From NCBI GenBank assembly GCA_025363655.1, contig JANYDK010000147.1:1-64000 (forward strand): a DNA stretch of 64,000 nt, written 5' to 3'. Both the position numbers and the translations under genes were made by a program. The notes under the pieces were generated by a model, which made no database searches, was not told where the DNA came from, and was given only the letters and a program-made list of their open reading frames with translations. This DNA comes from Deltaproteobacteria bacterium. Lineage in GTDB: Bacteria; Myxococcota_A; Polyangia; Polyangiales; JADJMO01. Below are positions 6,228-14,518 of this stretch, piece after piece (the first letter of the stretch is position 1; every line of letters starts with the position of its first letter).

Positions 6228-7604
6228 TCACTCCACGTGCGTCAGCGTCTCCCAAACCATGTGATGGTCGGCGCCCGTCGGCCGATTCTTCTCCACCACG
6301 TTCTTCGTGTGCGGCAGTGAAACGCCGAGGCGAATGCCGATCGCCGCATAGGCGAGCTCCCAGGTCTCGCCGTTCTTCAAGTCGGTGAAGCTGCCGCCGC
6401 AGAGCCAACCGGGGTTTGCGACGCCGTCGAGATATTGGGTATTGAATTCGAGCGCGGCGGCGATGCGGTGTTGCTCGGCTTGAAAGAGGTCGACGCCCTG
6501 AATCGTCGCCGTCTGGGCGGCATTGAACATCGCCGCGAGGCCGTATTCGAGGTGGCCGTAGTCGCGGCAGGTCTCTTGGACCAAGCCGTCGACGAACTTG
6601 CCCGGCGAGTACCAATACTTCGTCAGGTCACTGGCCGACTTGGTCGAGCCGGCCGGCTTGACCGGCGTCGTACCGTCGGACGTCAGGTAAATGTAGGCGG
6701 GCACGCGCTTGCGCCACATCGCCACTGCCCCGTCGAAGAGCTTGCGATCGTCGGTGAAGACGGCGATGTCGACGGTCGCCTCGATCATCGAGAGCTCCCA
6801 ATTGCCATTGGTCTCGATGTCCCCTTTGACGACGAGCGGCAGATAGACGTCGGTCAGCATCTTGGCGAAACGTGCTTGGTTCGCCGCCGGCCATCCGGTC
6901 CACGTGTGCTTGAGGAGCTCTCCCGCGCGCGGGAAGACGGAGCCCACCCACGCTGATTGCAGAGGCGCGTTGGCGAGCGTGTGCTTCTTCACCGTCGACG
7001 ACCAGGCATCGAGAATTTCCGCGCTCTTCTTCGCATAGGCCTCTTCACCGGTGAGGGCCCAGAGGAGCGCTTGCGTGTAGGCGGCGATGGCGTCGCTTTT
7101 CTCGTCGGTGCATCCGTAGTCGGGTGTCGAGTACGAGCCGCAGTCGACGCTCTCACGGGGCTTCGCGGTGTAGGTCGACTTCGCCCACGCGCTGCCCTTG
7201 GCGGCATCGAGGGCGCCCTTCCACGGCGCAGTGCCGGCGGCGATCTTCGCTTTGACGAACGCGAGCTGCCTACCGTCGACCATGATGCCCGGATGGACGA
7301 AGCCGCCCGTAGGCGGGGGCGGCGGCGTGGTGTCGTCGCCGGCATCGTCGTGCGCACCCCCATCGGGTGTCGTCTCGCTCGAACCATCGTGCGCGCCCAC
7401 GCCCGTGTCCTCGTCGGGCGGATGCCCCGCGGTGTCCTCTCCAGGAGACGCATCGTCACGCGGACCGCCATCGTGCTTGGGATCGAGCGCGCCTCCATCT
7501 TCGCCGGTGTCACCCTCGCTCGCAGCAGCGCACGCGCCGAGGCTCGTGAGCATGAGCGCGATCGAGACCACCGAACCGAGCTCACCAAGATGGAGAAGGC
7601 GCAT
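6228..7604 (-). CDS. alginate-lyase-like lipoprotein (copy 1)
   Basis: A 458-residue lipoprotein: signal peptide ending LTSLGAC, an Asp/Gly/Pro-rich linker to about residue 105, then one (alpha/alpha) helical domain of the alginate lyase superfamily (Pfam Alginate_lyase type). Landmarks are NAPLQSAWVGSVFPRAGE, NGNWELSMIEA and QETCRDYGH. The canonical NNHG segment of alginate lyases reads NGNW here, so substrate and even catalysis are uncertain. It is a clear paralogue of 12928-14265. ATG 7604 gives the lipoprotein signal; a -24/-12 element lies 15 nt upstream. Likely acts on an acidic polysaccharide at the cell surface. Confidence 0.85.
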   Translation of the reverse strand: MRLLHLGELGSVVSIALMLTSLGACAAASEGDTGEDGGALDPKHDGGPRDDASPGEDTAGHPPDEDTGVGAHDGSSETTPDGGAHDDAGDDTTPPPPPTGGFVHPGIMVDGRQLAFVKAKIAAGTAPWKGALDAAKGSAWAKSTYTAKPRESVDCGSYSTPDYGCTDEKSDAIAAYTQALLWALTGEEAYAKKSAEILDAWSSTVKKHTLANAPLQSAWVGSVFPRAGELLKHTWTGWPAANQARFAKMLTDVYLPLVVKGDIETNGNWELSMIEATVDIAVFTDDRKLFDGAVAMWRKRVPAYIYLTSDGTTPVKPAGSTKSASDLTKYWYSPGKFVDGLVQETCRDYGHLEYGLAAMFNAAQTATIQGVDLFQAEQHRIAAALEFNTQYLDGVANPGWLCGGSFTDLKNGETWELAYAAIGIRLGVSLPHTKNVVEKNRPTGADHHMVWETLTHVE

Positions 7605-7619
7605 CGTGACCTGCGATGG

Positions 7620-7635
7620 AGCAAGGTCGGTGCCG
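7620..7635 (-). promoter_or_regulatory. sigma54-type -24/-12 promoter for 7604
   Basis: On the minus strand the 16-mer is CGGCACCGACCTTGCT: GG and GC separated by exactly 10 nt, with a CAC core and a perfect TTGCT. The -12 C is at 7621, giving a predicted +1 at about 7609, a leader of about 5 nt before ATG 7604. Same layout as 29273, 38662 and 42587. Confidence 0.6.
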
Positions 7636-7759
7636 AGTGACTTTTGCCTAGATTTCAGGCCTTCGAGCGCAGTGGACCGAGGTCGACGCCCATCGTGAGG
7701 AGTCGGCCCCCCATACTTGCAGACCTTGGAGCGAGACCGTGCTCGGGCAGAGTGCCGCA

Positions 7760-9049
7760 TCAGCCGACGCCCATCGCCGCGAGCACGTTGGCTCGGTGTC
7801 CGAGCGTGTGGGCGATGCCCGAGAGGAGCGAGAAGACGCGCCCGACGAGCACGAAATGCGTGGGAATCTCCACCACCGGATTCTCGCGCACCGCCTCGAA
7901 GAGCTCGTCGGTCATCCCTTCGGTGAACTCGCCCTCGAAGCGGCCGGTGCCGCTGCGCCGCAGCATGCGCTTGGCGAGCTCGATGAAGGTGGTCGTGTCA
8001 CCGGTCTTGGTGCGAAATCCGAGCTCGGTGAAGGCGCGGATCATCGCCGACTCGTTCATCGTCATCATCGAGAACATGAGCTCGAAGAGGCCGAGCCCGA
8101 AGCCGTCGGGGAGCTCTTTGCAGAGCCCGAAGTCCATCACCACCACCTGTCCGTCGGGCCGCACGAAGACGTTGCCCGGGTGCGGATCGGCCTGGAAAAA
8201 GCCTGCCGCCATGATCATTCGCACGTAGACGCTCATCAGCGCGTTGACCACGTGACCGAGGTCGAGGCCCGCTGCTCGCAAGCCCTCGACGTCGGTGATC
8301 TTGATGCCCTCGACGAGCTCCATCGTGATGATGCGCTGGGTCGACCACTCGCGATGCACCACCGGAATGGCGACGGTGGTATCGCCGGCGAAGATGGCGC
8401 GGATGCGCTCGGCGTTGTCGACCTCGCGGACGAAATCGAGCTCCAGCGCGAGGTGCTCGGTCATCTCGCGCACCAGGGGCAAGAGCGGCATCGGCTGCGG
8501 ATCGAATCGCTCGTAGACGCGGCAGATGCGCGCCATGTTCTTCAAGTCGACGGCGACGATGTCCTCGATGTCGGGATATTGCACTTTGACCGCCACCTGG
8601 CGGCCGTCGCGAAGACGCGCGCGGTGCACTTGCGCGAGCGAGGCTGCGGCGAGGGGAGTGGCATCGAACTCGGCGAAGACCTCGCCAATCGGCTTTCCCA
8701 GCTCGCGCTCGACGACGGCGCGCACGACCTCGAACTCATGGGGCGGCACCGCGTCGTGGCAGAGCTTGAGCGTGCGTACGAACTCCGGAGGGAAGACGTC
8801 GCTCCGCGTGCTCATCACCTGACACATCTTGATGTTCACGCCGCGCAGCTCGAGGGCGAGGTCGAGGATCTTCTTCGCCGCGCGCTCGTGCGTTTCGCCG
8901 AGGCTCTTCGGCTCCGGTCTCCCCAGACGTTTGCGCACGAATTCAGGCACTTTGTACATGCCCCAGACCGACGCCGCGGTGGTTGCAGCGCGCGTCGTCC
9001 GATAGGCGTGGGAGAGGCTCGGAAACCGAGCGAGAAGCCCGAGGCTCAC
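7760..9049 (-). CDS. UbiB/ABC1 (ADCK-like) atypical kinase
   Basis: A 429-residue ABC1/UbiB-family protein-kinase-like ATPase. Visible motifs: the family KxGQ motif reads KMCQ (74-77; Gly replaced by Cys), the Ala-rich loop AAASLAQVHRA, Lys in VAVKVQYP, DPHPGN and MDFG. Family members support quinone biosynthesis or lipid metabolism at membranes, but this one lacks the strongly hydrophobic C-terminal helices of E. coli UbiB. The start is GTG 9049, overlapping the stop of the diiron-like gene (GTGA), so the two proteins are probably made together. That pairing suggests an oxygenase/quinone-related role, unproven. Confidence 0.88.
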   Translation of the reverse strand: MSLGLLARFPSLSHAYRTTRAATTAASVWGMYKVPEFVRKRLGRPEPKSLGETHERAAKKILDLALELRGVNIKMCQVMSTRSDVFPPEFVRTLKLCHDAVPPHEFEVVRAVVERELGKPIGEVFAEFDATPLAAASLAQVHRARLRDGRQVAVKVQYPDIEDIVAVDLKNMARICRVYERFDPQPMPLLPLVREMTEHLALELDFVREVDNAERIRAIFAGDTTVAIPVVHREWSTQRIITMELVEGIKITDVEGLRAAGLDLGHVVNALMSVYVRMIMAAGFFQADPHPGNVFVRPDGQVVVMDFGLCKELPDGFGLGLFELMFSMMTMNESAMIRAFTELGFRTKTGDTTTFIELAKRMLRRSGTGRFEGEFTEGMTDELFEAVRENPVVEIPTHFVLVGRVFSLLSGIAHTLGHRANVLAAMGVG

Positions 9050-10113
9050 TCGGCGGCCTCGAAGCCCGTCTTCTCGCTCGGCGAAAACGGCGTCTCGAGC
9101 GCGTCGAAGCGTTCGAGGAGCGAGCGCACGCGGGCGGCATCGGCGACCTTCTCCAGCGAAGAGGTGATCGACGTGCGCGTGGCGTTGCGCTGCTCTTGGG
9201 GCCGCTGACGCGTGGTGAATTCGAGCGCGCGGTGGAGGAGCGCATCGACGACGATCCGCCCTTCGAGGAGCTCCCCGTCGCCCCCGTCGACCGTACGCAA
9301 CGTGCGCGCGCGCACCTCACTGAGCGCCGTCCGCAGATACTCGACGTGCGGCGCTTCGTCGGCGCGGATGTAACCGACCATCGCGCCGGCTTCCTTCGGG
9401 CGCGCCGAGATCTCCGGATCGGAGAGCAGCGTCTCGCCCCAATCGAAGGTGCCGCGGGCGAAGACCTCGATGACGAGGACGTTGACCATCGTCGCCAACA
9501 TGTCTTCGAGTGTCTCGTCGAGCCTCGGGAAGAGCCGCTCCCGACGGGTCCGCGCGCGCGCACCGCCCATCATGCGCATGAGAATGTCGGAAGGAATCTT
9601 CGGAGAATCAAGCGCCAAATCGCGCGCCGCCTCCCACATCTGCTTGTGACCGCCCTCGTCCTTGTGGCCGGCCTCGTCGCGCGCGTGCGCTTCGAAGAGC
9701 CCTCCCGAGAGGTGCGCCAGCGCGGTGCCTTCGATCGGCTCTCGCACCAGGCTCGCCAGATCGGGCACCGGAACGTCGCGGATGATGGCGCCGAAACCTT
9801 CGACGATCGAGATCATCGTCAGCGCACGGACGATCGGCTCGCGCACGCCTTCGAGCAAGAGAAGCCTGGCCTGCGCCACGTTGGGATGGTGCGGCGGAAG
9901 GAGCGAGTCGGGGATCGAGAGGAGCGCGTGCCCATCGGTCGCCAGACGCGCCTGCCACGCGGCGATCGCCGGCATGCGGTGCGAAGTCCGCGGCGAGCGA
10001 TAGCGGCCGTCGGCATCGAAGCCTCCGTGGCAGCGCACGCCCGAGGCGATCAGCGGCTCGAGGCCCGGCTCACGTTCGAGAAGCTCGACCGACGACCACT
10101 CGAGACGATCCAT
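9046..10113 (-). CDS. ferritin-like (diiron-type) protein of unknown function
   Basis: A 355-residue mainly helical protein I cannot assign to a named family. Numbered from the ATG at 10113, it has Glu in VEGFG (105), a DEAGH motif (146-150), Glu in VIEVFARG (216) and a DEAPH motif (252-256): an E...ExxH...E...ExxH pattern typical of ferritin-like four-helix diiron proteins. No signal peptide. ATG 10113 has a GGAG seven nt upstream; a GTG six nt earlier is too close to it. The stop overlaps the UbiB-like start, so the two are translationally coupled. A COQ7-like or other diiron oxygenase partnership is an inference. Confidence 0.7.
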   Translation of the reverse strand: MDRLEWSSVELLEREPGLEPLIASGVRCHGGFDADGRYRSPRTSHRMPAIAAWQARLATDGHALLSIPDSLLPPHHPNVAQARLLLLEGVREPIVRALTMISIVEGFGAIIRDVPVPDLASLVREPIEGTALAHLSGGLFEAHARDEAGHKDEGGHKQMWEAARDLALDSPKIPSDILMRMMGGARARTRRERLFPRLDETLEDMLATMVNVLVIEVFARGTFDWGETLLSDPEISARPKEAGAMVGYIRADEAPHVEYLRTALSEVRARTLRTVDGGDGELLEGRIVVDALLHRALEFTTRQRPQEQRNATRTSITSSLEKVADAARVRSLLERFDALETPFSPSEKTGFEAAE

Positions 10114-10183
10114 GGTCACACTCCGACCACGAAGATATCACGCGGGCGCGCGTCTCCAGATGAAGGCCCGATGACCCGAAAAA

Positions 10184-11218
10184 TCAGGTCTCGACGGCGA
10201 TCGAGGTGAGCCCGACGAGATCGCCGCAGGTCGTGCGGCCGACCAGGTACACGCCGACGAGCGCTTGGTCGATGCTGCCTTTGGGCGCGAAGATGGCGAC
10301 GTAGACGACGTCGTGGAGCTGCGCGGTGACGGCCGCTTGGATCGCTGCCGCCGCGCCCGGATCGGCCGTCCCGCTCGAGGGCTCGAGATCGACGTAGTAG
10401 TTGCCGACGTCGCGAAGCTGAGCCGTGCTCCCCGCCGGCGCACCCACCAAGGCGAGGACCGAGGCGGCCGTCGGAGCCGTGGTTCCCGCGCCGGGATAGG
10501 AGACGATCTGAATCTCGCGATCGCTCTCGCTGAGGAAGAGGACGTCGGCGAGGTGCGGACGAACGGCGGCGTCGAAGGTGGCGATGCACCCGGGCGGCGC
10601 GGCGTGCATCGCGCTCCAGAAGGAGGGCGCCGACTTGCGGAGCGCACCGAGCGCCGCGCCACCGACGTATGACTGCGGGCCCATCTGCGTCACGGTCGTG
10701 TACGGGCGGTGATCGACCAGGGCCTTCGCCGCGCGCGCATCCATCAGCTTGTCGAGCTGCGCGAGGTCGGCGTGGTTGACGCCAAAGGCGACGGCCACCG
10801 ATTCCCAGCCCGTGAAAGCGACACCCTCGACGGTCTCACCCGCGGGCGCCGGGTGGGTCGCTGCGTAGATGCGAAGCTTGGTGAAGGCCGCGTCGCCGAC
10901 GTAGGCAACCGCGTCGAGCGCAGCGATGCTGGCAAAGTGCGCGTCGTCGGCCGAGGGGGACACGCCGTCCTTGCCATTGCGCGCCGCGACGATTGCCTTG
11001 GCCGCCCGCGCGTCGAGCCCTGCGCCCCTGTCGAGGACGGCGAGGTCGGTGCCCGGGTAGTTCACGAGCGCGAGGATCGCCGCGCCATCGGGGGCCGAGA
11101 GCGCGCCGCCGACGTTCGACGCCGCGTCCGTCTCGGGATCGTCGTGCGCGCTGCTGACGGCGCAGGCAGACGAGAGGGCCGAAGCGAGGGCCAGCGAGAG
11201 GGCGAGGGTGCGGCGCAT
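10184..11218 (-). CDS. lipoprotein with helix-hairpin-helix (ComEA-like) repeats
   Basis: About 344 residues with a signal peptide ending in ALSSAC. Three related helix-hairpin-helix-like segments follow (for example around DARAAKAIVAAR and DARAAKALVDHR), each a ComEA-type motif used elsewhere for DNA or protein contacts. The C-terminal ~130 residues look like an independent beta-rich domain with a Cys pair. Such HhH lipoproteins are common in Polyangiales but have no known job. The start may be ATG 11218 or ATG 11227; AAGG sits 9 nt before 11218 but is adjacent to 11227, so I prefer 11218. Divergent from the sigma54 activator at 11329. Confidence 0.75.
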   Translation of the reverse strand: MRRTLALSLALASALSSACAVSSAHDDPETDAASNVGGALSAPDGAAILALVNYPGTDLAVLDRGAGLDARAAKAIVAARNGKDGVSPSADDAHFASIAALDAVAYVGDAAFTKLRIYAATHPAPAGETVEGVAFTGWESVAVAFGVNHADLAQLDKLMDARAAKALVDHRPYTTVTQMGPQSYVGGAALGALRKSAPSFWSAMHAAPPGCIATFDAAVRPHLADVLFLSESDREIQIVSYPGAGTTAPTAASVLALVGAPAGSTAQLRDVGNYYVDLEPSSGTADPGAAAAIQAAVTAQLHDVVYVAIFAPKGSIDQALVGVYLVGRTTCGDLVGLTSIAVET

Positions 11219-11287
11219 GAAGGCCATCCTTGCATGGTGCGCGCCGGACCTACATCGGCATTTTCAGCCACTATTTATCGTCTGTAG

Positions 11288-12927: not shown

Positions 12928-14265
12928 TCAGCCCCCTACCCCATAGTGGGTGAGCGTCTCGTAGATCATCACCAACCCGTTGTGCGTGGGGCGCACCTTG
13001 CTCGCGATCGAAGCCACGTGCGTCATCGGGTGATGGAGCCGGCCGGACAGCGCATTGAGCGCGATTTCCCAGGTCGCCGAGGTAGACACGCCGGTGAGCG
13101 TGCCTCCACAAAGCGTCGAGGGCGGCGCCACCCCATCGAGCCACTGCGCGTTCCACTCGAGCCCGGTGGCGAGGCGCTTCTCTTCCTCGCCGTAGAGATC
13201 CACGCCTTGGATGTGCGCGGTCTCGGCGCCATCGATCATCGCGGCGAAGCCGAGCTGGACGTGGCCGAGATCGCGGCAGGTCTCCTGACAGAGCCCTTCG
13301 ACGTATTTTCCTGGGTTGTACCAGTAGGTCGCGAGATCGGCGCCGGTCTTCTTGGTGCCCGGCGGCGTCACCGGCTGGGCGCCGTCGCTGGCGAGATAGA
13401 GGTAGGCGGGCACGCGCTTGCGCCAGAGCGAGACGCCGCCCTCGAACGTCGGTCGATCGTCGTTGAAGACGCCGATCGCCATCGACGCCTCGGCCATGCT
13501 CAGCTCCCAATTGCCGTTGGCCGTCGAGCCCTTGGCGACCTTCGGAAGATAGACGTCCGTGAGCATCTTGGAGAAGCGCGCCACCTCGGCGGCTGGCCAC
13601 TTGCCGTACACGGTGCGGATGAGCTCGCCCGCGCGAGGGAAGACGCTCGCCACCCAGGCGGACTGGAGGGGCGCGTTGCTGTTCGTGTGATCGGTGATCA
13701 CCGCCGACCACGCATTCATGATCTCGATCGACTTGAGGGCGTACGCCTCCTCGCCGGTGAGCACGTAGAGCAGCGCTTGCACGTAGGCCGCCGTCGAGTC
13801 GCTCATCTCGTCGCTGCAGCCGTTGTCGGGGACCGAGAACGAGCCGCACTCGACGATCGCGCGAGGAGTCGCCTTGTACGTGGCATTGCCATACTTGCTC
13901 GACTTCGCGGTGGCCACGGCCGCGGTCCAGGGCGCCTCCTTGGCGGCGATTTTCGCCTTCACGAAGTCGAGCTGACTCTTGGTGACGAGGACGCCGGGAT
14001 GGACGAAGCCGCCCGTGCCCGCGTCGCCGGCCTCTGCATGCCCGTCACTCGAGACTTCGCTCGGCGCGTCGACCGGCCGATCACCAGAGGCGTCGCTCGA
14101 GGCATCGCCGGGCGCCGTGCCGTCGGCGGAGACGTCACTCGCGCCACCGGTGTCGTCCGTGCCGCTGGCGTCGTCGGTAGCGCCCGAGTCCGCGTTTCCG
14201 CACGCACCGAGGTCGACCAAGAGAAACCCGAGCACCAAGCACGAAGCACGGAGGGAGCGACCCAT
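12928..14265 (-). CDS. alginate-lyase-like lipoprotein (copy 2)
   Basis: A 445-residue paralogue of 6228-7604. Signal peptide ends LVDLGAC, followed by a Ser/Asp/Gly linker and the same alginate-lyase-like helical domain with NAPLQSAWVASVFPRAGE, NGNWELSMAEA and QETCRDLGH. The two copies share long identical stretches such as WRKRVPAY, so they arose by duplication, but their linkers and N-termini differ. ATG 14265 is chosen for the lipoprotein signal; no Shine-Dalgarno and no correctly spaced -24/-12 element are visible. Converges with the GAF activator. Surface polysaccharide lyase or binding protein. Confidence 0.85.
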   Translation of the reverse strand: MGRSLRASCLVLGFLLVDLGACGNADSGATDDASGTDDTGGASDVSADGTAPGDASSDASGDRPVDAPSEVSSDGHAEAGDAGTGGFVHPGVLVTKSQLDFVKAKIAAKEAPWTAAVATAKSSKYGNATYKATPRAIVECGSFSVPDNGCSDEMSDSTAAYVQALLYVLTGEEAYALKSIEIMNAWSAVITDHTNSNAPLQSAWVASVFPRAGELIRTVYGKWPAAEVARFSKMLTDVYLPKVAKGSTANGNWELSMAEASMAIGVFNDDRPTFEGGVSLWRKRVPAYLYLASDGAQPVTPPGTKKTGADLATYWYNPGKYVEGLCQETCRDLGHVQLGFAAMIDGAETAHIQGVDLYGEEEKRLATGLEWNAQWLDGVAPPSTLCGGTLTGVSTSATWEIALNALSGRLHHPMTHVASIASKVRPTHNGLVMIYETLTHYGVGG

Positions 14266-14518
14266 CGATCCAGATGAGCACGAAGCACCGATTGGCGCAT
14301 CGTGGTGGGAGGAGCAGACGGTGGGACAGGGTGCGACGATTCGTATCGATCGAAGCAGGGCCGCATACCGCTGCGTCGCGAGATCAATGAGTGAGCCGCA
14401 GATGCCGGCGCCGCGCACGCAGCTCGCGAAGGACGGTCGCGGCGGGCCGGACTCGTCGCACGACGAGGCATTTCATCAGCCCAACTTGACGCAGGTGGTC
14501 GGACTCGCCGGTGCGTCG
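14266..14518. other. 253-bp intergenic stretch, nothing recognised
   Basis: Between copy 2 of the alginate-lyase-like gene and the small ORF at 14519. I see no convincing ORF, tRNA, repeat or strong promoter here. A GG/GC pair near 14356-14368 on the minus strand resembles a -24/-12 element but has the wrong spacing. Confidence 0.5.

Follow-up and report, generated by a model that had tools for sequence, protein, structure and literature searches.

The question raised by this locus, which lies in a window of 64,000 nucleotides (the whole stretch of DNA that was analysed), is whether a diiron-like protein and an ABC1/UbiB-family protein encoded by two overlapping genes form a dedicated system outside ubiquinone synthesis. 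The upstream gene, here called D, was read as an open reading frame of 355 residues at 9046..10113 on the minus strand, with the ATG at 10113 as its start and an in-frame GTG at 10119 as an alternative start; its product is dimetal-carboxylate-like according to its AF2 model and showed no match to any Pfam family at E <= 1 or to NCBIfam. The downstream gene (7760..9049, minus strand) encodes an ABC1/UbiB-family atypical kinase of 429 residues. Both frames and the overlap between them, which the earlier note had described, were present: within the GTGA read at 9046..9049 (minus strand), the TGA at 9046-9048 is the stop of D and the GTG at 9047-9049 opens the ABC1 gene, giving an overlap of 4 bases. 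A start with this 4-base overlap was possible in 20 of the 41 distinct D-ABC1 pairs examined, once repeats of the same D sequence had been left out. D is single-copy in its own genome. No clear transmembrane stretch was found in D or ABC1 by hydropathy (top 19-residue mean of about 1.64 for each), so that membrane anchoring was dropped, and plasmid carriage was dropped as well because tblastn with D gave no match in a plasmid collection.

When genome contigs were scanned with D, 59 loci were obtained, of which 35 belonged to a Myxococcota-type clade (subtype A, the type of the window), 4 were Binatota-type and 20 were labelled as Actinomycetota or as one of its classes or genera. An ABC1 gene was located directly downstream of D and on the same strand in 33 of the 34 judgeable loci of the Myxococcota-type clade; locus L053 was not scored for its downstream neighbour because the contig ends inside D. 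The sole exception, L038, had no adjacent ABC1, but its genome carries the ABC1 orthologue elsewhere (L126, 538 bits) and therefore keeps both partners. No ABC1 was found within the DNA fetched for the 4 Binatota-type loci, and among the actinobacterial loci, several of which are contig ends, ABC1 adjoined D in 1 of 20 (L063).

A profile search of 282 Myxococcota genomes was positive for D in 38. Subtype A was found in 29 of them, and ABC1 was downstream in all the loci that had room for it (28/28). The reverse search with ABC1, carried out on 266 Myxococcota genomes (the two samples differ slightly in size), yielded 29 close orthologues with 58-100% identity and 476-954 bits, after which the next matches dropped to <= 47% identity and <= 349 bits. 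The 29 genomes bearing these orthologues were the same 29 that have subtype-A D, and the two genes were adjacent in each one of them by coordinates; in G272, ABC1 adjoins a fragment of D at the contig start. Adjacency by chance is very unlikely, because the genome of the window (9.0 Mb) has just 8 strong ABC1 genes at E < 1e-50. These results, which bear on the conservation that the earlier note had proposed to check, establish D and ABC1 as a genuine, dedicated two-gene unit, and from this linkage it is likely that ABC1 acts on or for D.

Myxococcota also have a second subtype of D (subtype B: L094-L114, L004 and L005), which matched in the 282-genome search at E near 1e-90. ABC1 adjoined it in none of its 21 loci in that search, and likewise in neither L004 nor L005. 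An adjacent ABC1 is thus not needed for the chemistry of D, since most of the other D subtypes are without such a neighbour. In a tree of the 85 distinct D members, some branches of which were weakly supported, the ABC1-linked members grouped apart from subtype B and from the actinobacterial clade. L038 fell within the ABC1-linked group, and the Binatota-type members were placed close to it; the subtype-B-like L095 was on its own long branch. The distances of D and ABC1 were correlated over 37 pairs (r 0.845; the largest of 1000 permutations was 0.314), but little weight was given to this correlation, as common ancestry would be enough to explain it. The distribution of D was sparse: it was found in 3 of 144 relatives searched, the own genome included, and was absent from the four same-family genomes. 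In the phylum of L063, 296 genomes were searched and 4 had family members, one being a marginal case; the 148 genomes searched in the phylum of L037 gave 2. The patchy occurrence of the pair fits transfer or repeated loss.

With moderate confidence, we propose that D is a dimetal oxidase or oxygenase served by a dedicated ABC1 ATPase or small-molecule kinase, the two forming a module that acts on a lipophilic substrate other than ubiquinone. D would represent an unnamed family of dimetal (probably diiron) carboxylate oxidases/oxygenases in which the first metal half-site is altered, and its ABC1 partner would be made by translational coupling. In this mechanism D would most likely bind metal and use oxygen in order to oxidise its lipophilic substrate, and ABC1 would most likely hydrolyse ATP and either bring the substrate to D or hold D active, by analogy with the support that COQ8 gives to the enzymes of coenzyme Q synthesis.

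The assignment of the downstream protein to the ABC1/UbiB family, made in the earlier note, was borne out by a Pfam match to ABC1 (PF03109) at E 3.7e-75, with 252.6 bits against a cut-off of 22.9. The same protein remained below the UbiB equivalog TIGR01982 (276.3 bits vs a cut-off of 487.55). Its predicted model (pLDDT 86.5) had COQ8A as the best Foldseek match (7udq, E 2.5e-16), followed by the mycobacterial ABC1 proteins MSMEG_1954 and Rv3197. These two are also its nearest solved ABC1 relatives by sequence (7cy2, E 8.8e-36, and 5yjz, E 2.7e-34), although their identity to it is about 25%, and we know of no D partner for either. The Ala-rich nucleotide loop A(A/S)ASLAQVH (8624..8650, minus strand) and the catalytic-loop motif DPHPGN (8171..8188, minus strand), both expected of the ABC1 family, were present in 43/43 aligned rows. 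At the position of the UbiB KxGQ motif the protein reads KMCQ (8819..8830, minus strand), and KxCQ was found in all 43 rows instead of KxGQ; since related ABC1 clades that do not adjoin D read KGCQ or KASQ, we take this as variation within the ABC1 superfamily and not as a reason for expulsion from it. For the same reason KxCQ was discarded as a special mark of the pair, near outgroup ABC1 proteins located away from D also having KGCQ. Loci L115, L117 and L174 represent a neighbouring ABC1 clade of the same phylum, away from D, with KGCQ in place of KxGQ.

These motifs bear on an alternative in which the two proteins are consecutive enzymes of a short pathway, ABC1, instead of helping D, acting as a small-molecule kinase on the substrate or the product of D. 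The ABC1 fold is common to small-molecule kinases, APH/RIO-type matches were obtained for the ABC1 proteins studied here, PMC11050807 describes COQ8A with small-molecule kinase activity, and the tight coupling and equal presence of the pair fit this alternative as well. However, the 43 rows retain most of the occluding elements typical of UbiB (the Ala-rich loop, and KxCQ for KxGQ, each in 43/43), and in COQ8A such elements hinder phosphotransfer, as stated in PMC4718504; PMC4718504 and PMC11050807 describe the KxGQ motif of COQ8A as folding into the active site and limiting autophosphorylation. We consider it unlikely that ABC1 catalyses such a separate kinase step.

As for the proposed helper role, the pair resembles COQ8/UbiB and COQ7 in that an ABC1/UbiB-family ATPase is linked with a diiron-type protein and that COQ8A is the best match of the partner model, but the two systems are not orthologous: D has no COQ7 match, and its partner is far below the UbiB cut-off and has KxCQ, not KxGQ. 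The idea put forward in the earlier note, that COQ8 licenses COQ7, proved to be a weak premise. In PMC7615680, COQ8B plus ATP gave on its own no rise in COQ7:COQ9 activity, though the output of the whole pathway went up about five-fold. A 'licensing' of D by ABC1 is what we infer at most. Our literature search found no paper on UbiB together with diiron proteins in myxobacteria, with oxygenase operons or with ferritin-like proteins in gene clusters, or on ABC1 atypical kinases in actinobacteria.

In D, the ferritin-like diiron pattern E...DEAGH...E...DEAPH noticed earlier is present on the minus strand at E105 (9799..9801), D146-E147-A-G-H150 (9664..9678), E216 (9466..9468) and D252-E253-A-P-H256 (9346..9360). 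Conservation was counted over 85 distinct relatives, a set from which rows with a stop, with < 300 residues or identical to others were removed, and from whose counts the contig-end fragments L053 and L093 were excluded. All 85 keep E105, D146, E147, H156 (9646..9648, minus strand), E216, D252, E253 and H256, and 83 of them keep H143; a chance motif was ruled out by this invariance. H150, the His of the first DEAGH, was found in only 5/85 and was absent in 80/85, the position being mostly Tyr, Trp, Phe or Glu (in subtype A, 27 of 40 rows have Tyr, 9 Trp and 4 His; in subtype B, 20 of 23 have Glu). The diiron pattern therefore stood in its four carboxylate positions and its second DExxH and failed in the first His; because H150 varies across relatives, the first DEAGH is a trait of the D of the window and a few others.

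The motif of the ferritin-like diiron oxidases (FDO) is E ... DExxH ... E ... DExxH. D presents its second half in 85/85 relatives and the first His in the five already mentioned, so that a canonical E/DExxH/E/DExxH site is unsupported and D is filed as FDO-like, not as a canonical FDO member. The missing His ligand of the first half may be supplied by H143 or by H156, the latter being a candidate replacement metal ligand because of its invariance. An N-terminal block of D is also invariant (HGGF 29-32, Y38, P41-R42, R46 and W53).

Comparisons with known families gave weak or no matches. COQ7 (PF03232; Pfam, E <= 1) and AurF (PF11583) matched neither D nor any of 56 relatives, and the D profile aligned with AurF-like proteins with an hhalign probability of 18%, spanning one or two helices, and with R2 with a probability of 0.2%; membership of D in the COQ7 or AurF families was rejected on account of the blank Pfam results and the weak profile alignments. 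There was no credible match of D among PDB sequences. Ferritin_2 matched weakly in 8 of 56 members of the D family (best E 0.026), and helix 4 of D gave weak profile matches to bacterioferritins (E 0.042 and weaker), with PDB matches spanning about one ExxH helix. Diiron genes of the AurF family (PF11583) are themselves common, each of the 11 genomes searched (G034, G185, G157, G350 and others) having between 3 and 9 matches.

The AF2 model of D (pLDDT 92.4, pTM 0.90) consists mostly of helices, together with a small pair of strands at the N-terminus. Helices 92-113, which holds E105, 132-148, 200-230, which holds E216, and 239-268 each bear invariant acidic residues, so that four core helices with candidate ligands, as expected of an FDO, are found in the model together with the 85-row alignment. 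The structure prediction suggested as a check in the earlier note thus gave a dimetal-carboxylate-like helical fold with four predicted core helices (AF2, VIA-align). The best Foldseek match in the PDB was CmlI (E 0.098, with none below E 0.001), followed among the top entries by CADD-like and, third, AurF. VIA-align listed 50 PDB entries from several dimetal families at Z 10.3-11.3, in a range (under about 13) that is common for helical bundles. Judged by their titles, 49 of the 50 belong to dimetal-carboxylate protein families (R2, R2lox, sMMO, T4MO, ADO, HrmI, UndA and CADD), two of these being R2 proteins of class Ie, whose function requires no metal; the other entry is PqqC. A helix-face calculation placed E105, E216, E253 and H256 at <= 43 degrees from the conserved face, which favours an inward orientation, and in helix 132-148 the conserved face was toward D146 (+34 degrees), with E147 at +134 and H143 at +94. 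D probably holds two iron atoms, and diiron-like chemistry with a non-canonical set of candidate ligands is likely.

The AurF/CmlI ferritin-like diiron N-oxygenases (PF11583) resemble D in being the first (CmlI) and third (AurF) Foldseek matches and in the DExRH of AurF-like proteins, with which the DExxH of D helix 4 aligns, but D differs from them in its lack of a Pfam match, the profile probability given above, its broken first DExxH and its own N-terminal block. CADD, UndA and HrmI, which are heme-oxygenase-like dimetal oxidases, ranked near the top of the structural alignments, with Z 10.5-11.0; the ligands of that group are 3 His and 3 carboxylates on three helices, according to PMC13108848, whereas the invariant residues of D follow E / DE / E / DExxH on four helices.

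The loss of the first His, the modest structural Z and the lack of a significant profile match to AurF-like proteins or R2 would also be expected if D had retained the helical bundle but bound one metal or none, its likeness to E/DExxH being partly a relic. Against this, the subtypes never vary at the four carboxylate positions or at H256, although they have diverged at many sites elsewhere, and the control alignment of AurF-like with R2 reached a probability of only 14%, although both are diiron proteins, which is no better than the score of D with AurF-like proteins; a D devoid of a dimetal site is improbable. A redox or metal-handling role of the rubrerythrin or bacterioferritin kind, with D engaged in peroxide detoxification or iron storage and ABC1 as a stress partner, is distinctly improbable: the weak matches of helix 4 to bacterioferritin and of eight members to Ferritin_2 speak for it, but the matches in the PDB extend over about one ExxH helix of a protein of 355 residues with an invariant N-terminal block, and in other lineages D is found next to genes for monooxygenases, P450 and TetR, as would better suit a metabolic enzyme.

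Those neighbours point to organic-substrate metabolism rather than iron storage. In the actinobacterial D loci, Pfam identified one upstream gene as TetR, and at other places D has luciferase-like monooxygenase genes, two in all, next to it; in subtype B, TetR-like genes were upstream in several loci and alpha/beta-hydrolase-like genes downstream in three (labels assigned by eye). The genes beside the pair vary (AlgH-like, zinc alcohol dehydrogenase, APH, Cys/Met PLP enzyme, P450, MFS and mechanosensitive channel; the Pfam scan took in 10 of the 52 adjacent genes found), and no flanking gene that would name the substrate was common across Myxococcota or recurred beyond close relatives. Deducing the substrate from neighbours failed, since the adjoining genes differ from locus to locus.

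COQ7 was absent from 9/9 genomes searched, with Caulobacter giving a match as the control, and this agreed with the earlier note's placing of the pair outside a ubi cluster. Two MqnA/MqnD-family genes are present in the own genome, where no MenD match exceeded the cut-off, and MenD was above the cut-off in 4/9 genomes; together with the lack of COQ7, these genes argue, at the sequence level, for menaquinone users. As the pair is found in bacteria without sign of the coenzyme Q step, it probably takes part in another oxygen-using reaction. That it serves quinone metabolism, as a menaquinone-modifying counterpart of COQ7/UbiB, would suit the UbiB-family relation and the menaquinone genes but is highly improbable given its patchy occurrence (subtype A in 29/282, D absent in the four same-family relatives), the lack of a quinone gene among the ten neighbours scanned by Pfam, and the missed UbiB cut-off.

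Returning to the oxygenase module with its dedicated ABC1, a second association was found in one actinobacterial clade. At L063 the genes for ABC1, D, an FMO-like protein and a P450 follow each other in this order on one strand, and the ABC1, just upstream of D, belongs to a different, unrelated subfamily that reads KLAQ. In L056, whose D is 89% identical to that of L063, an FMO-like gene lies downstream of D near the contig start, and another contig of this genome ends within the frame of an ABC1 that is 75% identical, suggesting that L056 shares the arrangement of L063. These two loci are the best hint that the link between D and ABC1 arose more than once. A portable oxygenase/ATPase system, in which a dimetal oxygenase with a rebuilt half-site and a dedicated ABC1 ATPase work outside quinone biosynthesis, linked with unrelated ABC1 proteins at least twice (in Myxococcota and in this actinobacterial clade with FMO-like and P450 genes), is a tentative possibility; if true, ABC1 proteins would assist, as a general role, oxygenases whose substrates are lipophilic. 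The molecular role of UbiB/COQ8 is debated, and most work on it concerns the many-protein coenzyme Q complex, so a pair with a single oxidase-like partner would be a minimal system for testing whether ABC1 stabilises, feeds or modifies its client. D would also put on the map an unnamed diiron-like family of Myxococcota, Binatota and Actinomycetota.

Locus L055 is titled Bifidobacterium breve but has almost the same D as the Acidimicrobiia MAG L058, so that the title is probably a mislabel, as judged from the tree. An operon role of the alginate-lyase gene downstream of the pair was unsupported, no such neighbour having been found among the ten scanned. In the window, genes of the alginate-lyase family flank the pair region at 6231-7760 and 12931-14418, both on the minus strand (Pfam E 3.2e-16 and 7e-12), and they look like paralogues, with similar Asp/Thr-rich N-terminal stretches. 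Just upstream of D, 70 bases apart, the gene at 10184-11227 (minus strand) matched NuiA (nuclease A inhibitor-like, E 5.3e-7) and a helix-hairpin-helix motif.
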